In this document: piece after piece, positions 3,738-37,545 of the stretch | Layout: each line of letters starts with the position of its first letter | How positions within the stretch are numbered: the stretch's first letter is position 1 | DNA from: Alphaproteobacteria bacterium | GTDB lineage: Bacteria > Pseudomonadota > Alphaproteobacteria > Paracaedibacterales > CAIOTO01 | DNA: 37,545 nt | Assembly (NCBI GenBank): GCA_947490395.1 | Contig: CANLGW010000005.1 | Location: 1 to 37,545 of the forward strand | Direction: 5' to 3' | The notes under the pieces: generated by a model | The model's database searches: none | Seen by the model: the letters and a program-made list of their open reading frames with translations, nothing else | What the model was told of the DNA's origin: nothing | Position numbers and translations under genes: made by a program

Positions 3738-5078
3738 TTAAATAAGGCATTTTCTCCATGATGTGAATATCGTCGTATTATTCTGCCTTGGTGCTGATGC
3801 TGCAGAATTTCTAAAAGTTGGATCGATTTGATTAATTATGACCTCGAATGCCTCTTCTGTTTGCTCTAAAGATAGCATAAAATTACTATTATTTTCTTCT
3901 ATATTCAGTATTCCAGCTTCATTATTTGTATCTTCTACGTCTGCGCACCAAAGAATGCACGTCCCTCCAGAATATATATGTGTAATCGTATCACACGTGC
4001 GAATAATTTTTTCTTTACCATTTTTCAATAAATAGGTTTTTGTCCAATTAGGGATATGCTGAGTCACTGCTGTTGCGTTATTTCCTACTGAGACAGGAGA
4101 AAGAACAACCTGATGAGAGGCGTTTTTTGTTGCGTTATTTTCTATTGAAGCAGGAAAAGGTTTAAGAAAGGGTGTTATTGTTGGGGGGCTGTATGTAACC
4201 GTGGGCGGTGTTGTGTCTGTAACCTCTTTTTCAACTCTTGGCGGAGTTGTATAATGTGCAACCGATGAGTCTGTCAGCAGTAAGGGAGTCCTTTTATTAT
4301 TTGCATCATTTCCAGCGTGAAAACCATGATCTTTTATTGGCTCAAATGTTGAAAAGACAGCTTTAAGTTCAGAGGATTCACTCTCATTCGACAGAGTACG
4401 TTCCAACACGACTTCGACAGTGGCAATTGCAGTAACATCAATTTTGGACGCGCTGCCAGTAATGCCTTTTCTTATATCAACACCTACTCGGTGAGTCTGC
4501 TGTGCTAAACCAAATAATTCAATAAATGCATTATGATCAATGCCTGTTAAAAAACTAAGATTACCGAAATAGATTTCTTGCCTTTTTTCAATTAACCTAC
4601 TTGCCAAACCTAGTGCATCTCTTACCAAATGATTAGCTAAGGCTTCAATTGTGTGGAGAGCTGCATAGTGCAAATAGGTAGTATCTGTCTTATAAGTATC
4701 AGAAGCAGATATTTTAAGACCTTTTGCTACCTCACGGAATTTTTGTGTAATCTCTATGTTTTCACCATTCTCTGTAAAAGCCGTGCCAAAAATAGCAAGT
4801 ACGACAGCTTGCTTTGTATCCATAGTGGCTTTCTTTTTAGTATTAACCCCTTTGGTGATTTTAGCATTAATAGCGACGGTGTGTTGATGATAGCTATGCT
4901 CACCCTCAATGTTCATTGGATCCGTATTGAATGCATCTTGGCGTGCACCATCCTGATTATAGATGAATTTTGCCGCCGTGCAGAATTGCTCTTGGTCAAT
5001 GGTATCATACCCAGCAATAGCATACTTCGCGAATACAAAAAGTAATAATATTAGTTTTATATGAATTCTTATTTCCAT
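3738..5078 (-). CDS. Secreted protein of unknown function, paralogue 1
   Basis: The 446-residue product begins with a clear signal peptide (IKLILLLFVFAKYAIA, cleavage near residue 22). The mature N-terminal half (about 23-240) is conserved with the protein at 5608-6969, including the segments FCTAAKFIY, TDPMNIEGEH, MDTKQAVVLAI, TYLHYAALHTIEALANHLV and NLSFLTGID. The middle (about 270-345) is rich in Pro and Thr and differs from the paralogue. A short C-terminal module starting WTKTYLLKNGK and ending INQIDPTF is shared again. I recognise no known domain. It lies between the btuB-like gene and the duplicate joint. The leader upstream of the start is nearly identical in both copies, so they may share regulation. 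An effector or envelope role would be a guess. Confidence 0.75.
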   Translation of the reverse strand: MEIRIHIKLILLLFVFAKYAIAGYDTIDQEQFCTAAKFIYNQDGARQDAFNTDPMNIEGEHSYHQHTVAINAKITKGVNTKKKATMDTKQAVVLAIFGTAFTENGENIEITQKFREVAKGLKISASDTYKTDTTYLHYAALHTIEALANHLVRDALGLASRLIEKRQEIYFGNLSFLTGIDHNAFIELFGLAQQTHRVGVDIRKGITGSASKIDVTAIATVEVVLERTLSNESESSELKAVFSTFEPIKDHGFHAGNDANNKRTPLLLTDSSVAHYTTPPRVEKEVTDTTPPTVTYSPPTITPFLKPFPASIENNATKNASHQVVLSPVSVGNNATAVTQHIPNWTKTYLLKNGKEKIIRTCDTITHIYSGGTCILWCADVEDTNNEAGILNIEENNSNFMLSLEQTEEAFEVIINQIDPTFRNSAASAPRQNNTTIFTSWRKCLI

Positions 5079-5607: not shown

Positions 5608-6969
5608 TTACGCGTTACCATCGGGAGTTTTCCCCCAAGAATAACTATTTCTTTTTTTTAATCGTGTCGGAGTTGATGCTGTAGAGTTTCCAAAAGTTGG
5701 GTCGATTTCCTTAATTAGGGCTTCGAAGCCTTCTTCTGATTGCGTTAAAGACAATGTAAAATCACCATGACTTTTTTTTACAATTAGCACTCCGGATTTG
5801 TTACTTTCTTCTGTACTTGTTCCTATTATCCTACCAGGATACGTATACGTAATCTTACCTTCTGTGCGAATAATTGTTTTCTTACCCCCTTTAAGTGAAT
5901 ACGTTTTTGTCCAACTAAGATCAGGCGCAACTGTTGCTGCAGCTTTTATTGGTGTTGAAGATTCTTTGGTAACATCTTTTGCTTGAGAAACTATTGTTGC
6001 TGCAAAATCACCAGGCGCATCGCTAGGTAATGAAGAGATTGCTAATGACGTAGATGTGATTAATGGGTGTGCGCTCAACAAATTTACTGATGGTAAAGTT
6101 ACATCACTAACATCTCTCTCATCTTCATCAGCTTTTTTCTCATCTTTTTGAACTAGGGTGGTTTCTTTACTTGATGCGTTATGACCATCATCTCCATGAA
6201 CAGCACTAACAGTGGGATTTATGGTTGCCACTGCTGATGGTGAAAGGACAGCTTTAAGTTCAGGGGATTCACTATGATTCGACAGAGTACGTTCCAACAC
6301 GACTTCGACAGTGGCAATCGCGGTAGTGCTAACTTCGGACGCGCTGACAGCAATACCTTTTCTTATATCAACACCAACCTGATGCGCACCACGTGCTAAA
6401 CCAAATAATTCAATAAATGTATCGCGATCAATGCCTGTTAAAAAGCTAAGATTACCGAAAAAGATTTTCTGTTTTTCCTCAATTAATCTACTTGCCAAAC
6501 CTAGTGCATCTCTTACCAGATGATTGGCCAATGTTTCAATTGTGTGCAAGGCTGCATAGTGCAAATAAGTAATATCTGTTCTATAAATATCAGGAGATGA
6601 TGTTTTAATTTTCTTTCTTGTCGCCCAAAACTTTCGTGTAATATCTGTATTTTCACCCGTTTCTGTAAAGGCTGTGCCCAAAATAGCTAGTACAACAGCT
6701 TGCTTTGTATCCATAGTGGCTTTCCTTTTAGTATTAACCCCTTTGGTGATTTTAGCATTAATAGCGACGGTGTGTTGATGGTATCTATGCTCACCATTAA
6801 TGTTCATTGGATCCACATTAAATTTTTCTTGGCGTGCATCATCTTCAACATAAATAAATCTCGCTGCCGTGCAAAGTTCGTCTTTATTGATGATATCATA
6901 TCTGGCAATAGCGCATGTTGCCAATACCAAGAGTAATAATATTAATCTAATTTGAATTTTTATTCCCAT
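5608..6969 (-). CDS. Secreted protein of unknown function, paralogue 2
   Basis: The 453-residue protein has a signal peptide (IRLILLLLVLATCAIA). The mature N-terminal half (about 23-245) is closely similar to the product of 3738-5078, again with FCTAAKFIY-like (LCTAARFIY), VDPMNINGEH, MDTKQAVVLAI and NLSFLTGID segments. The central linker is longer, carries a charged run KDEKKADEDERD and is rich in Ser, Thr and Ala. It has no resemblance to paralogue 1. The last 90 or so residues (WTKTYSLKGGK to IKEIDPTFGN) are shared. The pattern of a conserved head and tail with a fast-changing linker points to divergence after duplication. Both frames are intact, so both copies are probably expressed. No known family was recognised. 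Confidence 0.75.
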   Translation of the reverse strand: MGIKIQIRLILLLLVLATCAIARYDIINKDELCTAARFIYVEDDARQEKFNVDPMNINGEHRYHQHTVAINAKITKGVNTKRKATMDTKQAVVLAILGTAFTETGENTDITRKFWATRKKIKTSSPDIYRTDITYLHYAALHTIETLANHLVRDALGLASRLIEEKQKIFFGNLSFLTGIDRDTFIELFGLARGAHQVGVDIRKGIAVSASEVSTTAIATVEVVLERTLSNHSESPELKAVLSPSAVATINPTVSAVHGDDGHNASSKETTLVQKDEKKADEDERDVSDVTLPSVNLLSAHPLITSTSLAISSLPSDAPGDFAATIVSQAKDVTKESSTPIKAAATVAPDLSWTKTYSLKGGKKTIIRTEGKITYTYPGRIIGTSTEESNKSGVLIVKKSHGDFTLSLTQSEEGFEALIKEIDPTFGNSTASTPTRLKKRNSYSWGKTPDGNA

Positions 6970-14882: not shown

Positions 14883-16037
14883 TTATCGCGCACTACTGCC
14901 AGCTAACATCCGCAAGAGGTTGTGCGCCTCCGACTTTCCTTCATTAATATCACTCACAATTTGCAAGAGCTTTTTATCTTCCCACGTAACGATAAGGTCT
15001 AATAAATAAGGTGCTGGACTATGAGGGTCTATTTCCATTAAGAATTTCCCCAATTCATGAATCGCGCGATAGGCATCGGCACGTTGAGCAATAACTTCAG
15101 GTTCACTTTGTGATGACACTGTCTGCTGCACCGCATCTTCATTCGCCATAATTGAAGCAACATCCTTAAGTCCAAAAGGATCACTGATATCCATAGAGCT
15201 TGCTGGAGTCTCTGGCAGACTTTGTTCATTCACGCGTAATTCCAATGCTGAACTAACGATACGTATAAGCGCGTCTAGATTACTACATGTACCAGTAAAC
15301 ATAGGAATATAACTCGGAAATAAATGCTGAGATAAATCTTGAAAATCCGTAAGGGCAGTAAGAAACATAAGAGCATCTGCATAAAGTGCTTCAAGTACTC
15401 TTTTTGGTGCCAACGACAACCCACGTCTAAAACGTGCAAGCGTTACTTTTCCTGATGTTTCAGCATTTGTTAATAGTGCTTGACTATCAGGTGAACGCCT
15501 AGCAATTTTATCAAAATTAACGGCCTCAATCCAATCGGATAAATTAAGTGCATGCAAATCAATGCTTGATAAAACTGGTGTAATTTCAATGAACAATAAC
15601 CTATTTTGAAGCGTCTTATCAATCCAATCAAAGACATTAAGACGTTCTTCAAAATCATTATCCAAAACCTGTGGGTATGCAATATGCCAAAACAGACGAC
15701 AAAATTGATCAAGCACTTGCATGCCAAAAGCACCACCTTTAAGACCATTCAAAATAAGCCACGCTTCCATAAGCCAGCCCATGATTTGCAAATCTTTTGA
15801 TTGAGTACTAAGAGCATCGATACACAAACGTTCAACTTCTGAGAAATCCGCACGCTTTATAGCTGTTGTCCAAATTCCCCTGGATAGCTGTTCATTATCT
15901 TCACGACGCGCTTCCCTAATGTCATCATAAATAGCATCATAACGAAGAGAAGCACCCGCACCTTCATTTAACTCTAAACAGATTAAAATTAGTGATAACA
16001 ACGTGGGCTGCACGATCCCTTCTGCGTGATTTTGCAC
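14883..16037 (-). CDS. tssA: Type VI secretion system protein TssA
   Basis: The 384-residue protein carries the ImpA N-terminal domain of TssA: GASLRYDAIYDDIREARRED (about 28-47), then LSRGIWTTAIKRADFSEVE, LSTQSKDLQIMGWLMEAW and a GGAFGMQVL segment. The C-terminal part holds YRAIHELGKFLMEIDPHSP and the APYLLDLIVTW motif typical of TssA C-termini. TssA binds the baseplate and guides assembly of the sheath and tube. No other T6SS gene is within the window, so the system is either scattered or incomplete. The start ATG lies at 16035-16037. The L,D-transpeptidase upstream is in the same direction but 386 bases away, so a shared transcript is doubtful. Confidence 0.85.
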   Translation of the reverse strand: MQNHAEGIVQPTLLSLILICLELNEGAGASLRYDAIYDDIREARREDNEQLSRGIWTTAIKRADFSEVERLCIDALSTQSKDLQIMGWLMEAWLILNGLKGGAFGMQVLDQFCRLFWHIAYPQVLDNDFEERLNVFDWIDKTLQNRLLFIEITPVLSSIDLHALNLSDWIEAVNFDKIARRSPDSQALLTNAETSGKVTLARFRRGLSLAPKRVLEALYADALMFLTALTDFQDLSQHLFPSYIPMFTGTCSNLDALIRIVSSALELRVNEQSLPETPASSMDISDPFGLKDVASIMANEDAVQQTVSSQSEPEVIAQRADAYRAIHELGKFLMEIDPHSPAPYLLDLIVTWEDKKLLQIVSDINEGKSEAHNLLRMLAGSSAR

Positions 16038-27956: not shown

Positions 27957-28493
27957 TTACTGACGAAATTGAGACCACATCGCAGCTACGGTTGAATCTT
28001 TTTCCTTACTCCCGCGGGATGAACCAAATTCAAATGCATAAGCATCCTTTAAACACGCGCCAAAAATACCTGCAATTGTCGAAATAATACCGACTGCCTC
28101 ACCTGGCAAATGATCCGAAAAATACGCCAGTGACACCAAACACATAATCATCCCCATCGCTGCTGCAATCACCATAACATCCGCACGATAATTACGGCGC
28201 CCTAACTCAATAAAAGAAACATCGCGTTCACGGGCACTTTGGCGATCCTTTAAATACCCAAGTTCACGTTCAGTCTCCAATGCCAACATATCTTTTTGAA
28301 AGGCAATAAGTGCCGTCGGATCCGATCGCAATGCATTCATCACAGATGACACATCATCCAACCCCGTCACCCGTTTCGCACGCGTGATTACATCTGCCGC
28401 CACCTGCTCCACATCATCACCCGATAACCATCGCACAATAGACGGCGCAAATTCAGCCAACCCCATGGCGGTTGCAAAAAGTGGAAATGCCAT
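27957..28493 (-). CDS. 3TM-type holin of gene-transfer-agent/phage release
   Basis: The 178-residue protein matches the family named Holin of 3TMs, for gene-transfer release. It starts MAFPLFATAMGLAEFAPSI with RWLSGDD, has a long charged central helix (RELGYLKDRQSARERD) and two hydrophobic helices (about 105-124 and 131-150), then a polar tail. In Rhodobacter-type agents a holin of this kind lets the endolysin reach peptidoglycan. It is in the same direction as the SleB-type hydrolase at 29118-29576, with a toxin-antitoxin remnant between them. The ribosome site is the AGAGGTTTCC just before the ATG. Confidence 0.82.
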   Translation of the reverse strand: MAFPLFATAMGLAEFAPSIVRWLSGDDVEQVAADVITRAKRVTGLDDVSSVMNALRSDPTALIAFQKDMLALETERELGYLKDRQSARERDVSFIELGRRNYRADVMVIAAAMGMIMCLVSLAYFSDHLPGEAVGIISTIAGIFGACLKDAYAFEFGSSRGSKEKDSTVAAMWSQFRQ

Positions 28494-28542
28494 TGGAAAC
28501 CTCTCTTAAGTAAAATTAATGATTAATTGATTATATATAGAT

Positions 28543-28568
28543 AAAAAAACCCAGGCACATGACCTGAG
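28543..28568 (-). terminator. Intrinsic terminator of the toxin-antitoxin fusion gene
   Basis: On the minus strand CTCAGG pairs with CCTGGG (one G-U) around a 7-base loop, followed by seven T. It lies about 30 bases after the stop of the fusion gene. Confidence 0.7.
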
Positions 28569-28599
28569 GAATTAGAAAAAAATATGTTAGAGACTGTCT

Positions 28600-28953
28600 T
28601 CACTTCTCTTGAAAATGACCCGCCGCATATTCATGCAAAACACTCGCTATAAATGTCTGATAAGGCAATCCTTTATAAGCTGCTTTTTGCTTTAACCATT
28701 GCAAATCATTACTTGAAATCCGAATATTCACACGTGTATCTTTTTTAAAATATTTAGATGAAGCCTCACACGAAACATCAGCACTAATAATATCCACAAC
28801 ATATATTCTCTGCTGTGGGTACTTTTCTTGATTAGGAAGCTCTAAAACATCCAAAAGATTTCCATTATCTAAAGCAGATATAATCTCATCAAAACTAATA
28901 TTTCGTTCACTTATAAGCTGTTGATTTTTTTCAGCTGAAAATCCATATATCAA
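28600..28953 (-). CDS. Fused remnant of a toxin-antitoxin pair
   Basis: Residues 1-53 (EKNQQLISERNISFDEIISA, LPNQEKYPQQRIYVVDI) look like the N-terminal half of a BrnT-like small toxin. Residues about 68-117 (KKDTRVNIRISSNDLQ, GLPYQTFIASVLHEY) look like the DNA-binding C-terminal half of its CopG-like antitoxin. In the usual arrangement these are two adjacent genes. Here the toxin C-terminus and antitoxin N-terminus are missing and a single 117-residue frame remains, consistent with an in-frame deletion. AGGAAATTGAT precedes the ATG, and a consensus-like promoter and operator-like repeat lie upstream, so it may be expressed and bind its own promoter. The toxin family name is from memory. Confidence 0.65.
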   Translation of the reverse strand: MIYGFSAEKNQQLISERNISFDEIISALDNGNLLDVLELPNQEKYPQQRIYVVDIISADVSCEASSKYFKKDTRVNIRISSNDLQWLKQKAAYKGLPYQTFIASVLHEYAAGHFQEK

Positions 28954-28972
28954 TTTCCTTACTCCACATTAT

Positions 28973-29003
28973 AATGTATATAACAATGTATGAATTTTGT
29001 CAA
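28973..29003 (-). promoter_or_regulatory. Strong promoter with operator-like direct repeat for the fusion gene
   Basis: On the minus strand TTGACA (plus 28998-29003) and TATACA (plus 28975-28980) are separated by exactly 17 bases. Two ATACATT copies (plus 28973-28979 and 28985-28991) lie 12 bases apart over the spacer and -10 box, as expected for a repressor binding as dimers of a ribbon-helix-helix protein. Confidence 0.65.
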
Positions 29004-29117
29004 AATATAAGATTTTATATATAATTTATTAATAAAATAAATATAAGAATATCTAATTTATATTGTACCAGAAAGATGCAATACTACTAATCCACCAACA
29101 GCACATCTTCATCTCTC

Positions 29118-29576
29118 CTACTTACGTCGCATTTTATAAAAACGATGCTTACCAATTTGCACTTTCTCATCTGCAAAGTGTGCCCACCGTGGGGTGCTAC
29201 CCATATCCGTCGAAAAATAGTGATCCGCCCCCATCGTCATATCAGACACCAACATATGCGCTACAGCATATGCAACTTCTAAACATTCCTGAAAAACAGG
29301 CTTATCTGTTGTCACTCTTAATAATGTTCCTAAATTCATATCGCCCTCATTCCAACACGAAAATTGATAGGGGTATAAACATACTCCCCGAATAGTACGC
29401 CCATACCAAGTCCCCTGATGCACCCGATTCATAATCACATTACCAACGGCAATCAGCGCTTGCTGACCGCACGTTTTAACTTCTCCACGCGCTTCGCCGT
29501 ATAACGTACGTGCTAAAATTTCAACATCATCCATATCACTCAATACTGCCGTTAGACTTGACCGATCTAATACCAT
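29118..29576 (-). CDS. SleB-type cell wall hydrolase of the phage/GTA region
   Basis: The 152-residue protein matches the Hydrolase_2 family: LARTLYGEARGE with the catalytic Glu, QALIAVGNVIMNRV, GVCLYPYQFSCW, and MGADHYFST with a TPRWA ending. It cuts peptidoglycan and is the natural partner of the holin in lysis. The frame extends ten residues further to 29606, but ATG 29574-29576 is preferred. GGATAGGAAA lies before it and the start then falls just after the stop of the preceding gene (29585). No signal peptide is seen, so release would need the holin. Confidence 0.85.
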   Translation of the reverse strand: MVLDRSSLTAVLSDMDDVEILARTLYGEARGEVKTCGQQALIAVGNVIMNRVHQGTWYGRTIRGVCLYPYQFSCWNEGDMNLGTLLRVTTDKPVFQECLEVAYAVAHMLVSDMTMGADHYFSTDMGSTPRWAHFADEKVQIGKHRFYKMRRK

Positions 29577-29584
29577 AATATTTC

Positions 29585-29938
29585 CTATCCCAATAATAAT
29601 TGCCATTTGGTCTCATCAAACGCCTCTGCCACATGCGCCGTTAAACAAAAGTACAATCGACTCTCATAACGTACCCAATCACCAAACGCATACGTTTCAC
29701 CCACCTGCCAATCCCCCCGAAGGCGTGGTATCCATCGAGGCAATGCTGCGCGTCCAATTTCATCACCCATCCCATTTCTAAAAATTAATGTGTCCTGCTG
29801 TGTTTCAATTTGAAGTGGATTATCTGCTTGTGCCAAATCCTCTAACGTTTTAAGACGCTGATCCAACTCCATCAGATTTTGATCCATCTCAGCAATGGTC
29901 AACGGTTCCCCCTTAGTGGTTCGCAAAATAAGTGCCAT
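29585..29938 (-). CDS. Phage-tail-associated protein with chitin-binding-like C-terminus
   Basis: A 117-residue protein: an N-terminal coiled-coil stretch (IAEMDQNLMELDQRLKTLED), a small beta region, and a C-terminal segment GDWQVGETYAFGDWVRYESR, then LYFCLTAHVA. The latter resembles the carbohydrate-binding module found in tail fibres and chitinases, where W, Y and GD-V-Y positions are conserved. The start is fixed by GGAGGAATC just before the ATG. It overlaps the upstream gene by 26 bases and is followed by the hydrolase, so it is part of the same transcript. A role in receptor or wall contact is inferred. Confidence 0.6.
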   Translation of the reverse strand: MALILRTTKGEPLTIAEMDQNLMELDQRLKTLEDLAQADNPLQIETQQDTLIFRNGMGDEIGRAALPRWIPRLRGDWQVGETYAFGDWVRYESRLYFCLTAHVAEAFDETKWQLLLG

Positions 29939-30731
29939 GATTCCTCCGTAAAAATAAAAGTTTTACCCGTACATGCAGTGGGTCATAATCCAATACACGC
30001 GATGATTGATAACCAATCGAATCGTCCAGATTTGGTAAAAAATAATGGATAGAGCCAAACTGAATATGATTCATCAACGTCATTGGTGACGATAATGTGG
30101 CATCATCTTTTTCAAAATCACCCATTGCTCCACAATGTATTTGGCATGCTTGATTAATAGTTGAAGTCAGCTGAAGACACGTTTGGGACTCATCAGGGCA
30201 CAATCGAACATACATAGGCTTTATCGCATCAAGTGCACAACCTGATTGATAAAAGCCACCCAAGGACCAAACAGGTTCTAATACTGAACCTGTCTGTTGC
30301 CAAATGCCTGGCTGCCAAATACCTAATCGATCCTGTGTTGGCAATACATAATCTGAAATAATAGAACGATCCTGCACACCAAAATTAGCGCCCCATGCAA
30401 AGGGTATTTTGAGTGCTTCACACGCCCCTTTATCGTTTTCAATCCATTCCGCATGCCATTCAATGCGACGCAAAGTAGTTATAGAAGAATTATAAAGTGG
30501 AGTAGGGGAGAATCGCTCACCGCTATTATCACAAAACTGCCCTGTTGCACAACTCTCGACCCAATAAGGTTTCAATGTCCCAATCATGATAATCTGATCT
30601 GGAAAAGTAAATTCCTCAGCTTCCACAGTCGCCAATGAATCACGTGTATTGCCTAATTCCCAAATAGGGCAATCGTAGGACAAAAAGGATGAAGGAGTGT
30701 CCCCATCCCGTTGATAGATGATTGTTTTCAT
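29913..30731 (-). CDS. Phage-tail-region protein of unknown function (272 residues)
   Basis: No signal peptide. The protein is rich in Trp, Tyr and Cys (about ten Cys, including CATGQFCDN and CPDESQTCLQL), with predicted beta strands throughout. I recognise no family. The start is backed by GAAGGAAAATCT before the ATG. It lies 33 bases after the 555-residue gene and overlaps the 117-residue gene, so it belongs to the tail transcription unit. A structural role at the tail tip is inferred from position only. Confidence 0.6.
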   Translation of the reverse strand: MKTIIYQRDGDTPSSFLSYDCPIWELGNTRDSLATVEAEEFTFPDQIIMIGTLKPYWVESCATGQFCDNSGERFSPTPLYNSSITTLRRIEWHAEWIENDKGACEALKIPFAWGANFGVQDRSIISDYVLPTQDRLGIWQPGIWQQTGSVLEPVWSLGGFYQSGCALDAIKPMYVRLCPDESQTCLQLTSTINQACQIHCGAMGDFEKDDATLSSPMTLMNHIQFGSIHYFLPNLDDSIGYQSSRVLDYDPLHVRVKLLFLRRNHGTYFANH

Positions 30732-30764
30732 AGATTTTCCTTCATGTAAAATAATGATTTGCTC

Positions 30765-32432
30765 TTAAGGAAGCTGGTACATAATCGGCGTTCCCCGTTC
30801 CCATGTTGTCTCTATCACTGGCTTTGGCTCTAGTGACCGAAACTGAACATTCAAAAAACATAAATGATCACGCAGCACAGCTTTGTAATCGTTGTGGGTT
30901 GGATATTGCGCTGCCATCAACGCGTCAACTTGTGTAGCACTATCACCACCAACACGGATAGATTCAACCAAATCATGAATACGAAACGTTTCTGGGTCAT
31001 CAGGTGCTTCATGATCAATCTCATCCGATCGATGCAATGCCCAATCAGATGATGGTGACTTTGCATAATCATCACTTATAAATTCAGAACAAACCGCAAT
31101 ATCATAAGGATGATCTGATGCATTTTCAGGCACGACTGTTTTTAAAGGTGCGGCAATTTTCACCCAAACAAACCACTGATCAGGCGCTATTATTAATCGA
31201 TAGGCAACAACTTTTCCCGCAATTTTTTTACCTGGAATATCGCTGTGCGCCACAATAACTGTTGTATCCAAATCCACATCTCGAAAACAATCAAACGGCA
31301 CACAACATTCAATTTCCAATTGACGCTGTGATCCTGCCATATGCGCTTTTGCAACTGCGGACGCATAATTCAATAACATTGTTCCACGCTCCGTTCGCAA
31401 AAGGGTCGTTGCTGATTGTTTCGCTAAATAAGAATCACCATGTGCCAGCTTAAACGTGAGCTGCCGTACACCACCGCCTGCGCGTGCATTGACATTTAAT
31501 ACACTAAAATTAACAACCTCACGGCATGGTTGTTTATACTGCCAATTAATCCATAAACTCCCCTTAAACCATCCGTAATTAAAATGTCTAAATCGTGGTT
31601 CTTGACCTGCTTCACTTAAATAAATAGGCGGTGTTACAGTTGGCAAGCCATTAACAGTTCCAAGACGTGTCAACGTACTTTTAACAACTTCATATCCGCT
31701 ATTACGGCGTGTTTTAATGCGCCCAATTTTATCGCCCACTCGCGGCCATTGACGAATCAAGCTTTTAATCGTCAGTGTACTGATCACCTTATGTTTGAAT
31801 TGACGTGCGATCAACGGCGCTAAATTGAAAACATCTTCATAACACTGCGTCCAATTCGCTTCCACCGAGACATGAACCGCATTCAATGGTGTCTGTCCCA
31901 TTCGAACGACAAGTGAATCATGAAAGATTTCATCGGATAATATTTTTGTTTTACGTCCTACGAAAAGATTCGATAATCCCAAATGACCTGTCTCACGATC
32001 CCAATGAATAATGTCTGATCGATTTTCAAGTACTTCTGCAATACCAACTGAATCATAAAAACCCGCTTCAAATGACAGATTCTGTTTTAATTCATCGACC
32101 AAACAACGCATTTGCTGCATGGCATCTGATCGTTCAGCATTCAATTCCCACTCCATAAAACCATCACCTTTAGAATTTGGAATACGTGATACATGCCCAC
32201 GGAAAAGCACATACGCTTGCTGTCCATCATGATAAGAAATAAGGGCATGTGATAGCGTCAGATCACCCAAATTCGCCACATCATCAGTCGTTGCATCCGT
32301 TAAAATACGCGCAACCGCAGCCTCCGTTTCACGTTGCAAAATCACACATTTAAAAATACGTATTGTTTCAACGCAATGAATTTCTGGTATAAAGTCTTGG
32401 TTTGGCTCTATCCAGGCAAAAAATATTTTCAT
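30765..32432 (-). CDS. Large tail/baseplate-like protein of the phage/GTA region
   Basis: A 555-residue protein of mostly beta character, without signal peptide or membrane segment. The frame extends to 32465, but the ATG at 32430-32432 is preferred because AAAGAGGTG lies at good spacing before it. Segments such as YVLFRGHVSRIPNSKGDGFM and WPRVGDKIGRI are of the kind seen in phage tail hub and baseplate proteins, but I cannot name a family. The first 150 residues contain a strand-loop pattern with RGH, resembling surface-deposit domains. First gene of the unit that continues with the 272-residue protein, the 117-residue protein and the hydrolase. Confidence 0.6.
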   Translation of the reverse strand: MKIFFAWIEPNQDFIPEIHCVETIRIFKCVILQRETEAAVARILTDATTDDVANLGDLTLSHALISYHDGQQAYVLFRGHVSRIPNSKGDGFMEWELNAERSDAMQQMRCLVDELKQNLSFEAGFYDSVGIAEVLENRSDIIHWDRETGHLGLSNLFVGRKTKILSDEIFHDSLVVRMGQTPLNAVHVSVEANWTQCYEDVFNLAPLIARQFKHKVISTLTIKSLIRQWPRVGDKIGRIKTRRNSGYEVVKSTLTRLGTVNGLPTVTPPIYLSEAGQEPRFRHFNYGWFKGSLWINWQYKQPCREVVNFSVLNVNARAGGGVRQLTFKLAHGDSYLAKQSATTLLRTERGTMLLNYASAVAKAHMAGSQRQLEIECCVPFDCFRDVDLDTTVIVAHSDIPGKKIAGKVVAYRLIIAPDQWFVWVKIAAPLKTVVPENASDHPYDIAVCSEFISDDYAKSPSSDWALHRSDEIDHEAPDDPETFRIHDLVESIRVGGDSATQVDALMAAQYPTHNDYKAVLRDHLCFLNVQFRSLEPKPVIETTWERGTPIMYQLP

Positions 32433-32572
32433 GAAATACACCTCTTTTACTCGACAAATGTTCAATTTGCGCTTACGTTAATGACAAAATCATTTATTTC
32501 TAAATCACCGTTAACGGCATGCGTTATACGGTTAAAACTGAACAGCATTCACTACAGACAGGGTCATTAACA

Positions 32573-33544
32573 ATGTCACTTCATGCACCAGACACATTAC
32601 CCAAATCATCATTTCTTGATCAGTTAGGCACATACGTACAGTCCCATTCATTTTTGAAGTGGTTCTTTAGTAAGGGCTATAAACAAGGTGTTTTTTGGGT
32701 CTTAATGATTACAGTTGTTAGTGCAACAAATGATGTGCTTATGCGTCTGTTGGGTGAACGTCTTCATGTTGCCGAAATTTCATTTTTTCGGTTCTTTTTT
32801 AGTCTTATTTCTGTGTTACCAATTATCTTTTTAAAAGGCGGCATTAAACTGATTAAGACAAAACAACTCAATCTGCATATTTGGCGTGGTATCATTGGTG
32901 CCGCAGCACTAGGGCTTTGTTGTTATTCAGTAAACATCATGTCCATGTCTGAAAACACAACTATTATGTTTGCCCAACCGTTATTCTTTTTACCAATGGC
33001 CTATTTCTTCCTTAAAGAAAAAGTGGATTCATCGCGGTGGCTTGCTACCTGTATTGGTTTTGTTGGTATTTTAATTATCATGCAACCAGGCACAGAAACA
33101 TTTCGCGTACAGGCATTTGTTCCTATGACAGCAGCTATGTGTTTTGCAATTATCAGCATGCTTGCAAAAAAAATGATTGATGACGAACATTCACTAACTC
33201 TTCTCTTTTACTTTGGCTTAATAACAACACTCGTTACCCTTCCCATTATGGTTCCTTTTTGGCAAATGCCTACGTTAGGAGAACTCCCTTTTCTGTTCAT
33301 GCTCGGTATTGGTGGCAATCTTATTCAGGCGTGTATTTTCCGTGCGTTTTCATCAACAGATGCTTCTGCACTTTCCCCCATTTTCTATACAGAAATTGGC
33401 ATTTCAACAATGTTTGGCTTTTTATTCTTCCATCAAATCCCAACCATATATGTCATGTTTGGCGCCATTCTGATTATTGGTAGCACATTCGCAATCAGCA
33501 TGATTGAAACGCGTCGTGAAAAAAAGCTAGCACCCTTTCAATAA
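32573..33544 (+). CDS. EamA/DMT-family transporter (10 TM)
   Basis: The 323-residue membrane protein has about ten hydrophobic helices in two EamA halves (WVLMITVVSATNDVLMRLLG, IGAAALGLCCYSVNIMS, then PMTAAMCFAIISMLAKKM and GIGGNLIQACIFRAFSSTD). It is of the drug/metabolite superfamily, and similar transporters of Rickettsiales import S-adenosylmethionine, so that is a possible cargo; I cannot confirm it. The frame opens at 32519, but the ATG at 32573 is preferred for its AGGGTC. It is on the opposite strand to the phage-like genes on both sides, so it is likely a cargo gene or an insertion. Confidence 0.85.
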   Translation: MSLHAPDTLPKSSFLDQLGTYVQSHSFLKWFFSKGYKQGVFWVLMITVVSATNDVLMRLLGERLHVAEISFFRFFFSLISVLPIIFLKGGIKLIKTKQLNLHIWRGIIGAAALGLCCYSVNIMSMSENTTIMFAQPLFFLPMAYFFLKEKVDSSRWLATCIGFVGILIIMQPGTETFRVQAFVPMTAAMCFAIISMLAKKMIDDEHSLTLLFYFGLITTLVTLPIMVPFWQMPTLGELPFLFMLGIGGNLIQACIFRAFSSTDASALSPIFYTEIGISTMFGFLFFHQIPTIYVMFGAILIIGSTFAISMIETRREKKLAPFQ

Positions 33545-33654
33545 CGATTGAGTAATAGAAGATCGAGGTTAGAAGCACAGAATTTACATACAATAAATAA
33601 GCACAGAGAATCCGATAACCGATAAATTAATCAATCGTTAGTGAAGTGATATAA

Positions 33655-34149
33655 TTAGATCTCTTCAAGTTCTAAGATCCACCCAGCCTTCAACCCCCAC
33701 TCATCGGTGTTAAGGGTTAAAGCAATAACCCGCATAACAAGCCATGGTCGATAACTGACAAAAGTGTCATCATCCGAAAGTTCCACCGTTTTCGCATCAA
33801 CTTGATGTACAATTCTTAACTTTTGCAAACGATCAATGCCTGCAATTGATCCTGAAACAGCTTCTCGCTCAAGGGTCATGAACCCACGACCACCCTGTTG
33901 CCATAAACGCTGCAAACATCCCACACGAACAGTAGCGCCGCGCATTAAAACCCCTTCATTCACAAGTGTTGTTTTATCTTCGCATCGAATAATTGATTTA
34001 TATTTATGAGTTTTAGGGCCAACATAGTTTAAATCACCATTAACTGTTCGACGGAACGTGCCTTGTTCAACAATGCTAAGTTCTTGCTGACATCCACGCG
34101 CTGATAAAGGTGGGAATCCACACCCCTCTATTGTTAATTCTGTTTCCAT
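33655..34149 (-). CDS. Phage-tail-region protein of unknown function (164 residues)
   Basis: A soluble protein with mostly beta strands: METELTIEGCGFPPLSARGC at the start, LNYVGPKTHKYKSIIRC and a conserved-looking end WLVMRVIALTLNTDEWGLKA. No family was recognised. It could be a tail or tail-tip component, judging only by position between the DUF3168 gene and the large tail-like protein. AGGATGTGATTT precedes the ATG. It follows the 36-residue ORF after 18 bases, and both come after the terminator at 34297-34323. Confidence 0.55.
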   Translation of the reverse strand: METELTIEGCGFPPLSARGCQQELSIVEQGTFRRTVNGDLNYVGPKTHKYKSIIRCEDKTTLVNEGVLMRGATVRVGCLQRLWQQGGRGFMTLEREAVSGSIAGIDRLQKLRIVHQVDAKTVELSDDDTFVSYRPWLVMRVIALTLNTDEWGLKAGWILELEEI

Positions 34150-34167
34150 AAATCACATCCTAAATAT

Positions 34168-34278
34168 TTATGATGGGTCATACCATTGTGGTAAGCTATC
34201 GAGCGCCAACCGCTCACGTTCATAACGTGCTTGTTCAAGAAATGCCTCTAGTTGCTCGCGTGTCAAAAATTCGTTCAT
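34168..34278 (-). CDS. Tiny ORF of 36 residues in the phage/GTA region
   Basis: Encodes MNEFLTREQLEAFLEQARYE followed by RERLALDSLPQWYDPS: one long charged helix and a Trp/Pro end. AGAAGGGAAG lies a few bases upstream of the ATG, as good as its neighbours, and the stop is 18 bases before the 164-residue gene. Codon use looks like the flanking phage-like genes. No family was recognised. Phage tail regions often have such helical proteins as assembly chaperones. Confidence 0.55.
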   Translation of the reverse strand: MNEFLTREQLEAFLEQARYERERLALDSLPQWYDPS

Positions 34279-34296
34279 GTTTCTTCCCTTCTGTAA

Positions 34297-34323
34297 ATAA
34301 AAAACGCCAGGATAAAACCTGGC
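34297..34323 (-). terminator. Intrinsic terminator after the DUF3168 gene
   Basis: On the minus strand GCCAGG-TTTTAT-CCTGGC is a perfect 6-bp hairpin (plus 34306-34323) followed by G and TTTTTT. It lies about 30 bases after the end of the gene at 34352-34753 and divides the capsid-connector unit from the next genes. Confidence 0.8.
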
Positions 34324-34351
34324 ACACAATCATCAAAAATAAGAATATCCC

Positions 34352-34753
34352 TTACCGAACAAGCACATCAAAATACTGCTGCACGGACAACGGCTTCGTT
34401 TGAGATGGCATATCAATAATACTATTCGACAAACGCACAATACCTTGTTTTCCGCCTTCAACATCAAGTGTCTGTCCATCAACGGCACTTCGGATTTTAT
34501 CTGCAATCCCTAATGATTCACGAGACGATAATTTCTGACTATACGTTGATGCTTTTAATTTAAGTTTCACAAAACCTGTTTCTGCTCCCAGGCGAACAGA
34601 TGTCCATATTTCTTCTAATTCAACCAAAACACATGGATAATCAGCCCCTTTAGGGATACTAATATGTATTTGCTGATCAACGCCCGCTTCTTGCAATTGT
34701 GTATCACCGATCAAAAGCTGCCTGAACGCTGCCAAAACACCAAAATCAATCAT
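34352..34753 (-). CDS. Tail completion protein of the DUF3168/GTA gp8 type
   Basis: The 133-residue protein fits the DUF3168 family, with AFRQLLIGDTQL at the N-terminus, ISIPKGADYPCVLVELEE, a central KLKLKASTYS strand, SLGIADKIRSAV and a C-terminal VQQYFDVLV. In Rhodobacter-like agents a protein of this size follows the head-tail adaptor and caps the tail. GGAGGATTTAA precedes the ATG, and the start overlaps the previous gene by eight bases. The intrinsic terminator at 34297-34323 follows. Confidence 0.75.
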   Translation of the reverse strand: MIDFGVLAAFRQLLIGDTQLQEAGVDQQIHISIPKGADYPCVLVELEEIWTSVRLGAETGFVKLKLKASTYSQKLSSRESLGIADKIRSAVDGQTLDVEGGKQGIVRLSNSIIDMPSQTKPLSVQQYFDVLVR

Positions 34754-35120
34754 TTAAATCCTCCTGCCCTTGATCATAAAAGAGCCCCTCTACATATGTA
34801 TTACATGCGTCCAGATTAAAATTATAAAAATTATTTAAAATTTTATTATTCCAGATTAACGCGTTTATTTCTTCATGTCGACCCTTTGCAAAAGCATTTG
34901 CGCGAATCTTTACCTTAAAAAAGCATTTTGCTTGTCTTGGATTACTTTCATTAGAAACGCCCAATGGTAAATAATGCGTTAACGTAATTGGTTTTATATC
35001 GGCCCATACTTCTTTGATGAAAAAAAAAGATTGAATAATATCACCTTTTTCATCTTCAACCTCTTTTATACGTCCTATTTTTACGCGATGTCTTAACCGT
35101 TTAAGAAAATCCTTACTCAT
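34746..35120 (-). CDS. Phage head-tail adaptor (SPP1 gp16-like)
   Basis: The 124-residue protein has the head-tail joining family pattern: LRHRVKIGRIKEVEDEKGDI near the start, EVWADIKPIT, then KVKIRANAF and INALIWNN. It links connector to tail. Its ATG overlaps the TGA of the gp6-like gene as ATGA, so translation is coupled. Confidence 0.75.
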   Translation of the reverse strand: MSKDFLKRLRHRVKIGRIKEVEDEKGDIIQSFFFIKEVWADIKPITLTHYLPLGVSNESNPRQAKCFFKVKIRANAFAKGRHEEINALIWNNKILNNFYNFNLDACNTYVEGLFYDQGQEDLND

Positions 35121-35647
35121 AATTGCACCGTCACATTCTTAAATGGCGCAAGCAACGTCTTTACCAACATTGGTATTTCCATTGCCCCAGATCGATTTTC
35201 ATAAAAATGAACAGCCAGCATAATTAAAGCCTGTCGAATCGCCGCTGGCACATGCTTTGGAACAAGACCAAATCCAGCCTCATAAACAACCTCTACCGAT
35301 TGCGTGGAATAACACAATAATGTTGGGCGCAAATTATACAGGTCAACTGAATAACGCCGAATGGGATGTGATGTACCATTCGGTTGCAAACGACTCACAG
35401 ATAAAATCTCAATCAATGGACACCGGGGTAATTTAATCTGTTGTTGTGCATCTCCCAAAGAATTTACAGCCAACCGCCAGGTCTTTTTTATTAATGTTTT
35501 TCCAAGATACTCTTCCACCATATTGGTAGAGGCAGCAATTAATCCTCCTAACAAATCATCGTCCACATCGGTGTCAAGACGCAGATGCGCCTTGACCTCC
35601 GTTAATGTGATGGGCTCAATTTCACTTGATTCCAACAGTGTCAACAT
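35117..35647 (-). CDS. gp6-like head-tail connector protein
   Basis: The 176-residue protein shows the phage gp6-like connector signature: EPITLTEVKAHLRLDTDVDD at the start, LGGLIAASTNMVEEYLGKTL, LPRCPLIEILSV, and AIRQALIMLAVHFYENR with the C-terminal PMLVKTLLAPFKNV. The frame runs back to 35692, but the ATG at 35645-35647 is preferred. It lies just after the capsid stop (35649-35651), has GCGAGG before it, and gives the usual MLTLLE start. In RcGTA the same gene follows the capsid gene. Confidence 0.85.
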   Translation of the reverse strand: MLTLLESSEIEPITLTEVKAHLRLDTDVDDDLLGGLIAASTNMVEEYLGKTLIKKTWRLAVNSLGDAQQQIKLPRCPLIEILSVSRLQPNGTSHPIRRYSVDLYNLRPTLLCYSTQSVEVVYEAGFGLVPKHVPAAIRQALIMLAVHFYENRSGAMEIPMLVKTLLAPFKNVTVQL

Positions 35648-35648
35648 T

Positions 35649-36731
35649 CTATACCTCGCTAAAACGAATCGCTTTAAAAGCATCAAAATCAATTACATCG
35701 CCGCCAACGCGTTTCGTTGCATAAAATTCAACGAATGGTTTCGCACTATAGGGATCACGCAATAATCGCATTTCGTGACGATCGACAATTTGATAACCCC
35801 GTTTAAAGTTTGCCAAAACCATTGGTGTGCTGACTTCTCCTTCGCGGGCAGATGGCATATCATCGCTTAAGATAACGGGATAACCCAATAATAAATCAGG
35901 TTCACGTAATAAAAGAGACGGTTGCCAAATAGGCATACCATCACGGGTTTTAAGGCGCCTAATTTGCGTCACAGCCGAACGTGCCACATACCACACAGCA
36001 CCATCTAAAAATTCAGGTTTCATGGCTTCGAGTACGGTATACAATGCATCAATATCCGTAATTGAACCATTGTGACCTGTATTAACCGCCTCAATTGAGC
36101 CCCATGTCCCAGCACCAACATTAACCAATGGATAACTGAGGAAACCTTTTGGTTTGCCAACACCATCCCCTTTAACAAAACTTTGATTTTCAAGTTGTGT
36201 CATTTTCTGAGCAACTTTATCAACAAGCCATCCTTCCAAATCAATCGCTGCATCATCCAATAATTTTTGACTGATTCGTGGTTTGGCATAAAGTTCATGA
36301 ACCGTGATCTTATGACGCACTAATTCAGGTGTTGCCGATTCAGGGCGATCACCTGTTTCAGCAACCCATCCTGCATCGGCTAATTTTTTATCAATCAATA
36401 ATTCAAGAGAATCTGTTGATATGCGTGTATGACGTGATAGGCTGCGAAGCCCGCCATGCAAGACTTGCCGTTGTTGGATTTGATCCTGAACAGGCTGTGA
36501 CACGAGATAAGCACCCGATTCATCTTGAGATGAAAGAGCCTTTGTACGCACACCTTCCCGTAAGAAGCTACGCAATTCACGGTCATTTTCCATGCCATTT
36601 GCATCCGCTGTATAACCACCCGAACGCCCAACTGCAGCCCACAGTTGATTCAGCTTTTTTTCCTGACGGTCATGATAATCAATAAGTGTTGTTTTGATTT
36701 CATTCAAACCATTTTCAAATTCGTTTGTCAT
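35649..36731 (-). CDS. HK97-type major capsid protein (GTA gp5-like)
   Basis: The 360-residue protein has an N-terminal charged helical scaffold region (about 1-55, with YHDRQEKKLNQLWAAVGRSGG) and an HK97 fold: SGAYLVSQPVQDQI, GWVAETGDRPES, AKPRISQKLLDDAAIDLEGW, the FVKGDGVGKPKGFLS loop, LYTVLEAMKPEFLDGAVWYV and PVILSDDMPS. It is slightly shorter than RcGTA gp5. The scaffold would be removed by a prohead protease, which is not in the window. AAGGAAACATT precedes the ATG. Two intrinsic terminators lie within 100 bases upstream. Confidence 0.92.
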   Translation of the reverse strand: MTNEFENGLNEIKTTLIDYHDRQEKKLNQLWAAVGRSGGYTADANGMENDRELRSFLREGVRTKALSSQDESGAYLVSQPVQDQIQQRQVLHGGLRSLSRHTRISTDSLELLIDKKLADAGWVAETGDRPESATPELVRHKITVHELYAKPRISQKLLDDAAIDLEGWLVDKVAQKMTQLENQSFVKGDGVGKPKGFLSYPLVNVGAGTWGSIEAVNTGHNGSITDIDALYTVLEAMKPEFLDGAVWYVARSAVTQIRRLKTRDGMPIWQPSLLLREPDLLLGYPVILSDDMPSAREGEVSTPMVLANFKRGYQIVDRHEMRLLRDPYSAKPFVEFYATKRVGGDVIDFDAFKAIRFSEV

Positions 36732-37023: not shown

Positions 37024-37524
37024 TTAACGATCGCTAGAATTTTCTGGATATGGAAATTTAGATTCTCTACGGTAGTACATTGAAAAAATTCCCTTACTTT
37101 CAGTAAAAAATGGACGATTGAACAATAAATCCTCATTGTCTAATTTCTTTAAATCCGTAAGAATCCATTCAGCTGGATTAATGCCAGCTGTTTTAACAAA
37201 ATGACCATTTAGCAAATTATCTTCACTATCAAGTTTCTGTAAATCCCAGCGAATTTCTTCATAATGGCGATCCGAAAACTTTTTTATTTCGGGTGCAGGT
37301 TGATCTTGCGTGACCGAACTCATCAGACGTCCCGCAGAGTACCCAAACGATCTAAATGAATCTATCGCATAAACCGATGACCCCATAAACATCACCAATA
37401 ATGTGTAACGACAATTACTTTGACACTCAGTGACAATTAAAAATGAGACATGAATTGGGTCTAAAATTCTTGTAAAACAGGGATACATGAATCTCTTAAT
37501 TTGCGGGAAAATATCATTGACCAT
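37024..37524 (-). CDS. Possible exported protein with two internal repeats
   Basis: The open frame gives 166 residues, but the first 35 or so look unlike a normal N-terminus. A signal-peptide-like stretch, YTLLVMFMGSSVYA, begins near residue 40, so the real start may be further in (perhaps at a non-ATG codon), or the 5' end may be frameshifted. The mature part has two similar blocks of about 25 residues (WDLQKLDSEDNLLNGHF and TDLKKLDNEDLLFNRPF). No family was recognised and the 5' end is near the window edge. Confidence 0.45.
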   Translation of the reverse strand: MVNDIFPQIKRFMYPCFTRILDPIHVSFLIVTECQSNCRYTLLVMFMGSSVYAIDSFRSFGYSAGRLMSSVTQDQPAPEIKKFSDRHYEEIRWDLQKLDSEDNLLNGHFVKTAGINPAEWILTDLKKLDNEDLLFNRPFFTESKGIFSMYYRRESKFPYPENSSDR

Positions 37525-37545
37525 AACATCCAGACAGGTGAAAAA

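Follow-up and report, generated by a model that had tools for sequence, protein, structure and literature searches.

A conserved phage-derived gene cluster of Paracaedibacterales as a probable domesticated element with a predicted short tail

The present work concerns a stretch of DNA of 37,545 nucleotides (the window), which is the entire contig C5 of a genome from the alphaproteobacterial order Paracaedibacterales (G000; 1.58 Mb in 94 contigs, 92.7% complete), and a cluster of phage-like structural genes located at positions 27957 to 36731 within it. Gene transfer agents (GTAs) are known mainly as long-tailed particles of free-living alphaproteobacteria, of the type of the Rhodobacter capsulatus GTA (RcGTA). 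We consider it fairly likely that the cluster described here represents the structural genes of a tailed phage that was domesticated long ago into an element of the GTA type, which has been passed on vertically in alphaproteobacteria with small genomes and would form a particle with a short tail. Sequence comparisons with 42 genomes of the order (mostly drafts) and a wider sample of 385 genomes of the class indicate that its head, neck, tail-tip and lysis genes are one conserved and selectively maintained block, accompanied by an unlinked, single-copy terminase, and that none of the members examined has, at the expected place, the tube, chaperone and tape-measure block of a long tail.

Conservation, inheritance and selection of the cluster

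In the 19 loci fetched from the order, the genes for the portal, protease, capsid, gp6, gp7, gp8, x164, an antisense EamA transporter, x566, x272, a protein with a carbohydrate-binding module (CBM), a hydrolase and a holin-like protein follow each other in this order, with some gene losses and splits and with lineage-specific genes, many of which have signal-peptide-like starts, inserted in places (the labels gp6, gp7 and gp8 follow RcGTA-type positions, and x164, x566 and x272 are proteins of the cluster). The same order is also present in about 15 deeper relatives beyond the order, including two single-contig genomes of 0.62-0.63 Mb, and at least five genomes (viz. G002, G009, G020, G026 and G029) have the full order with all frames open, bar the small CBM gene, for which some of the five gave no hit. 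In six genomes (G008, G022, G009, G026, G020 and G029) recG lies next to the cluster (RecG domains are seen in G020, and the identity among them is 52-87%), indicating that two families share one chromosomal site. A profile of x164 has matches in 36 of the 385 class genomes, one copy in each (two matches are borderline), and all but one of these genomes are of 2.6 Mb or less. The single-contig genomes G059 (628 kb) and G190 (622 kb) keep the portal, protease, capsid, gp6, x164, a gene of 508-515 amino acids (aa) in the x566 position and the holin-like gene. Judging from the small genomes and the literature, the host lineages would be symbionts of protists or animals, similar to Holosporales.

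In the window, the head and neck genes are all on the minus strand. The major capsid protein of the HK97 fold (35649..36731; 360 aa; PF05065, 3.6e-73; TIGR01554, 5.1e-87) has as its best solved relative the RcGTA capsid Rcc01687 (profile search, E 2e-118), and among the named phages Azospirillum phage Cd comes closest (44%). It is followed by a gp6-like head-tail connector, or adaptor (35117..35692; PF05135, 1.1e-12; TIGR02215, 3.6e-30; phrog_442, 6e-25), by a head-completion or stopper protein in the gp7 position (34746..35120; PF05521, 5.6e-6; phrog_25 head closure Hc1, 9e-4) and, in the tail terminator (gp8) position, by a DUF3168/tail completion gp17-like protein (34352..34753), whose match to PF11367 (0.0018) is below the cut-off, although the gene and its place are conserved across the order. 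The DNA of the head region showed no similarity match to 50,697 named phages.

The 20 capsids of the order type group together in a single clade with a support of 100, apart from RcGTA and the phages. The capsid tree shares 7 of 9 splits with that of the host protein MurC (random mean 0.24, maximum 3), 10 of 17 splits are common to the unlinked large terminase (TerL) and MurC, and 9 of 12 splits are shared between the capsid and TerL trees. As in a GTA, the phage-derived structural genes are thus found to be inherited vertically with the host, based on comparison of the capsid, portal and TerL trees with that of MurC. The ratios of nonsynonymous to synonymous substitutions (dN/dS) of the cluster genes against the nearest relative range from 0.01 to 0.21; against G003 they are 0.055 for the capsid, 0.01 for gp8, 0.068 for x164, 0.12 for x566, 0.079 for the hydrolase, 0.038 for the holin-like gene and 0.054 for the transporter, whereas against G002 the capsid value is 0.094 and that of the host MurC is 0.078.

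The initial annotation, made from the window alone, considered the structural genes to be present and intact. For the capsid, connector, adaptor and hydrolase this is borne out by family matches, by the dN/dS values and by the fact that all recognised structural frames in the window are open, and the weakly matching DUF3168 gene is conserved in relatives at this position; however, the gene called a holin has no match to a holin family. Its proposal of a scattered GTA or a domesticated particle is supported by the separate site of the terminase, the single-copy loci that follow the host tree, the monophyly of the capsids, the conserved gene order and purifying selection. The same annotation allowed for a complete, integrase-bearing prophage just beyond the window, and no such prophage is seen around the clusters of the relatives: no integrase was recognised beside the clusters in the flanks that were read (several loci), which consist of recG and other host genes. 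Plain decay in relatives, the other outcome it allowed for, is seen in part, as stops and frameshifts occur in several of them, but the locus has been maintained for long elsewhere.

Terminase, portal and protease

The initial annotation also described the cluster as one without packaging genes, and the terminase, portal, protease and tape measure are indeed absent from the window. However, this description is incorrect at the level of the genome. Contig C37 (positions 158-1498) carries an intact large terminase of 446 aa, with Terminase_6N and 6C domains and of the T4-like headful type, and loss of the terminase is accordingly rejected. The 5' part of the portal gene (PF04860; TIGR01537) is located at the end of contig C36. 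Contig C5 stops 814 bp upstream of the capsid gene, and its last 144 bp (37402..37545, plus strand) are identical to the 144-bp suffix of C36, in the same orientation, with both contigs stopping there. This repeat, for which no match was found in plasmid records, is probably the end of an insertion sequence, with C5 and C36 running into copies of one repeat. In comparison to the relative G003, the portal gene on C36 contains one extra A in an A run, leading to a frameshift, and the repeat begins further on. Neither the rest of the portal gene nor the protease was found in the G000 assembly; the protease profile used detects relatives' proteases at 2.5e-29 and 2.1e-31. The missing remainder of the portal and the protease piece may lie on a short unbinned contig or may have been deleted. 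The absence of these two genes from the window should not be interpreted as biology, given the contig edge and the repeat and the fact that both genes directly precede the capsid in relatives, and packaging genes that are "missing" at a contig edge should be looked for on the other contigs of a genome. In view of the broken portal gene, current activity of the system in G000 is improbable, and since the remaining genes are still under strong purifying selection, the inactivation would be recent.

Across the order, a terminase match is present in 38 of the 42 genomes (as a single copy, with a second match in a few), a capsid match in 33 and a portal match in 30, so that the packaging genes of a GTA are found in these genomes; in G000 itself the terminase is intact and the portal broken. 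The distance between terminase and capsid is 991 kb in G020 and 882 kb in G029 (two long contigs) and 38 kb in G011, in comparison to 4-7 kb in RcGTA-like genomes. However, the terminase still adjoins the portal in G013, and pieces of a terminase are located close to the portal in G390, which suggests a stepwise scattering of the genes from one original cluster. A terminase match without a detectable capsid was observed in G001, G015, G025, G027, G028, G034 and G041, some of which are 95-98% complete, and in such genomes the terminase apparently persists for longer than the head genes. Contig C36 of G000 also carries dprA and comF, which would suit the uptake of delivered DNA, but these genes are widespread.

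A tail without tube and tape measure

The genes x164 (33655..34149, minus strand; conserved family A1) and x566 (30765..32432, minus strand) are predicted to encode, respectively, a ring-forming beta protein of the tail tip (Dit/tail-tube fold, weak) and a gp27/VgrG-like tail hub. The predicted structure of x566 (AlphaFold, predicted local distance difference test (pLDDT) 72) gives Foldseek matches with E down to 6.6e-12 to the hubs of contractile injection systems, VgrG and the Mu/MuSo2 hubs, and of 7e-6 to T4 gp27. That of x164 (pLDDT 84) is all-beta and shows a weak resemblance to the rings of baseplate, distal tail and neck. Profile searches with x164 and x566 against solved structures found none, x164 and both hubs (that of the window and that of the phage contig L118) have no match among the proteins of the 50,697 named phages, and counterparts of x164 or x566 were not found in RcGTA-like loci.

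Nineteen IMG/VR contigs carry x164, two of which (L113 and L114) look like the endosymbiont locus itself. In the true phages x164 follows a long open reading frame and precedes x566, and this frame is a tape measure by profile in L116, L118 and L122. The clearest example is the siphophage-like contig IMGVR_UViG_3300008255_000587 (L118), in which the order of genes is capsid, gp6, gp7, neck, a DUF3168-sized gene, tube (phrog_807, 7e-27), chaperone, tape measure (phrog_8462, 4e-44; 587 aa), x164 and x566. Thus, homologs of the capsid, gp6, gp7, x164 and x566 occur in the same order as in the endosymbiont cluster, but the phage keeps the tube, chaperone and tape measure between the neck and x164, and its portal is divergent. 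A 975-aa tape measure is likewise found directly upstream of x164 in G310 (5.0 Mb), the only large genome with an x164 match, where the gene is part of a prophage-like module. In contrast, the gap between gp8 and x164 is of 81-486 bp in 15 of 16 endosymbiont loci, the exception being G010, which has opposite-strand genes there, and the tube and tape-measure genes expected of a long-tailed (siphovirus-like) particle are not found between the neck and tip genes. The tape-measure profile, which finds three phages and a prophage at E 5e-39 to 6e-12, has no match in the 42 genomes of the order, and the tube profile (phrog_807), which finds two phage tubes at 7e-27 and 3e-25, has one partial match (profile positions 104-172), in a 235-aa frame of G009 (G009:C1:322013-322210). 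Since the tube and the length-ruler genes of a long tail appear to be gone, any particle would be short-tailed, and this architecture is possibly the new part of the system.

Relationship to RcGTA and alternative explanations

The reading of this cluster as a domesticated short-tailed element has several observations weighing against it. The particles, their packaged DNA and the expression of the genes are predicted from sequence. In G000 the portal is broken by the frameshift and the repeat and the protease is not in the assembly, the capsid gene is split in G005 and G012 and x566 in G031, G008 and G006 (G032 also shows a split), some of which breaks may be errors of draft assembly, and 9 of the 42 order genomes have no capsid match. 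Further, the fold matches of x164 are weak (best E 3e-3 against PDB), and the genes for tube and tape measure are poorly conserved and were sought genome-wide with one profile each, so that diverged copies could be present elsewhere.

With RcGTA (Rhodogtaviriformidae) the cluster has in common an HK97 capsid, portal, protease and gp6/gp7/gp8-type neck genes in the same order, a T4-like headful-type terminase, vertical inheritance and, in the flanks read, no recognised integrase. The capsid profile best matches the RcGTA capsid, by score the terminase and portal are much nearer to RcGTA-like genes than to those of phages Cd, D14E and USDA76-1, and the capsid, portal and terminase are homologous to those of the RcGTA lineage. 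However, we regard it as highly improbable that the cluster is a plain member of that lineage with scattered genes. The tail genes gp9-gp15 are absent and the x164/x566/x272/CBM module stands in their stead; the profile of the gp15 family (PF13550), which is positive in five class genomes with RcGTA-like clusters, has no match in the 42 order genomes, and since no fetched locus combines RcGTA tail genes with x164/x566, membership by tail is rejected. The portal and capsid trees also place the main endosymbiont clade outside the clade with RcGTA tails. Other differences are that here a hydrolase and a holin-like gene are attached to the cluster, that an antisense transporter lies inside it and that the terminase is unlinked; a single head-tail cluster with the terminase beside the portal is not seen in most members, G013 (adjacent) and G390 (near) aside. 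An intact prophage does not fit either, with the terminase elsewhere, tube and tape measure not found and no integrase in the flanks read.

A normal long-tailed GTA with scattered genes, of which the tube and tape measure are elsewhere in the genomes and too diverged for the profiles used, is in our view unlikely. Additional scattering is plausible, as the terminase, and in some lineages the portal, has already moved away, tape measures diverge fast, and there is the partial tube match in G009; however, both profiles recognise phage genes at the low E values given above, and in the single-contig genomes of 0.62-0.63 Mb the gp8-position, x164 and x566 genes are directly consecutive. It is improbable that the cluster encodes a domesticated particle without a role in DNA transfer, e.g. 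a device with a short tail for killing neighbours or for acting on the eukaryotic host. The gp27/VgrG-fold hub and the carbohydrate-binding fibre-like protein would agree with such a device, and DNA transfer is here itself a prediction, but selection maintains the capsid, prohead protease, portal and headful-type terminase, all of them dispensable to a tailocin-like device. The portal frameshift and repeat in G000, the split capsid or x566 genes in the six genomes listed above and the loss of the locus from some genomes could indicate a decaying, functionless prophage remnant, an interpretation which we judge to be quite improbable and which is largely refuted for the group by single-copy vertical inheritance across families, by a capsid dN/dS near that of MurC, by the open frames of the whole block in five genomes and by its persistence in genomes of 0.6 Mb. 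Some individual lineages have undergone real decay of a locus that others have long maintained.

Uncultivated viral contigs (L132-L147) carry an RcGTA-like capsid and portal, most of them without RcGTA tail genes or x164/x566. In G061 (L296, 1-11919), the terminase, portal, protease, capsid, a 149-aa protein and gp6 are directly followed by x164/x566; the 149-aa protein resembles a 143-aa protein of the RcGTA-like G050, and the portal groups with that of the RcGTA-like G051, outside the endosymbiont clade. This locus is either a mosaic or of a second origin.

Proposed mechanism and significance

If the cluster is a domesticated short-tailed element, one tentative scenario, which we put forward with less than even confidence, is that a GTA lineage was deprived of its tube and tape measure at an early time and now functions with a short tail, in which the ring and the gp27/VgrG-like hub sit directly on the neck, and that it has been kept for very long in obligate endosymbionts, even in genomes of 0.6 Mb, as a means for symbionts to exchange DNA within host cells or from one host cell to another. 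In the reading that we consider fairly likely, the headful-type terminase would pump any available chromosomal DNA through the portal into a small, RcGTA-like HK97 capsid. The vertex would be closed by the DUF3168 protein, the ring of x164 and the hub of x566, which together would make up a very short tail. Binding to the target surface would be the task of x272 and the CBM protein, and lysis of the producer that of the hydrolase and the holin-like protein. If true, a tube-less second type of GTA under purifying selection in endosymbionts down to 0.6 Mb bears on how such bacteria still exchange DNA and on how often phages were domesticated as GTAs, and the locus offers a natural test of a long-tailed virion turning short-tailed through deletion.

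A work by George et al. 2022 (GBE evac099) reportedly deals, according to its title, with GTAs in bacterial endosymbionts of protists, and the cluster studied here very probably corresponds to the GTA described there. A review of viriforms (PMC9953437) also makes mention of GTAs in the endosymbionts of diplonemid protists. Incomplete prophages and phage capsid and portal genes have been reported in Candidatus Bodocaedibacter vickermanii and Holospora (PMC8163844, PMC5911502); these elements, compared here by their description, are similar in being capsid/portal genes of related endosymbionts, but they were reported as prophage remnants. Kogay et al. 2019 found few RcGTA homologs and no RcGTA-like clusters in Rickettsiales, Paracaedibacterales and Caedibacterales (PMC6821227), as is expected if the tails differ.

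Other genes of the cluster and the window

A gene for an EamA/DMT-family transporter (32573..33544, plus strand; PF00892, 7.9e-32) separates x164 from x566 and runs antisense to them. Its location and direction are the same throughout the order and in many of the deeper relatives, but it is missing from that place in the 0.6 Mb genomes G059 and G190 and also in G061, G367 and G371. The genes that follow x566 in the window are all on the minus strand. The protein x272 (29913..30731), for which family searches gave no match, has a tail-tip position that is conserved in relatives. Next to it is the small fibre-like protein with a CBM5/12 module (29585..29938; PF02839, 6.3e-6, at the cut-off), which has weak PHROG matches to tail fibres and collars and whose phage homologs sit downstream of x566. 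The cell-wall hydrolase is of the SleB type (Hydrolase_2; 29118..29570; PF07486, 2.9e-17; phrog_938 endolysin, 2.8e-18) and would have the role of an endolysin, and the last gene of the cluster encodes a membrane protein (27957..28493; phrog_1544, 3.8e-20, a family of unknown function), which is called holin-like because it has a hydrophobic stretch and comes after the hydrolase. Between these two genes, a small protein (28600-28953, minus strand) shows weak matches to a BrnT toxin in its N-terminal part and to a CopG/BrnA antitoxin in its C-terminal part, and it is possibly a fused remnant of a toxin-antitoxin pair.

The G+C content of the cluster (0.404) is similar to that of the rest of the window (0.389). 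In G003, the locus has an insertion upstream of the protease (L034, 1-6300), which consists of a series of secreted, trypsin-like paralogs together with short partner proteins. Elsewhere in the window, two tandem paralogous secreted proteins without a known family are encoded at 3738-5078 and 5608-6969 (minus strand), and a TssA-like gene of a type VI secretion system (ImpA_N, PF06812, 7e-30) is present at 14883-16037 (minus strand); further type VI-like genes may follow on contig C37 (L103, 10402-11763).

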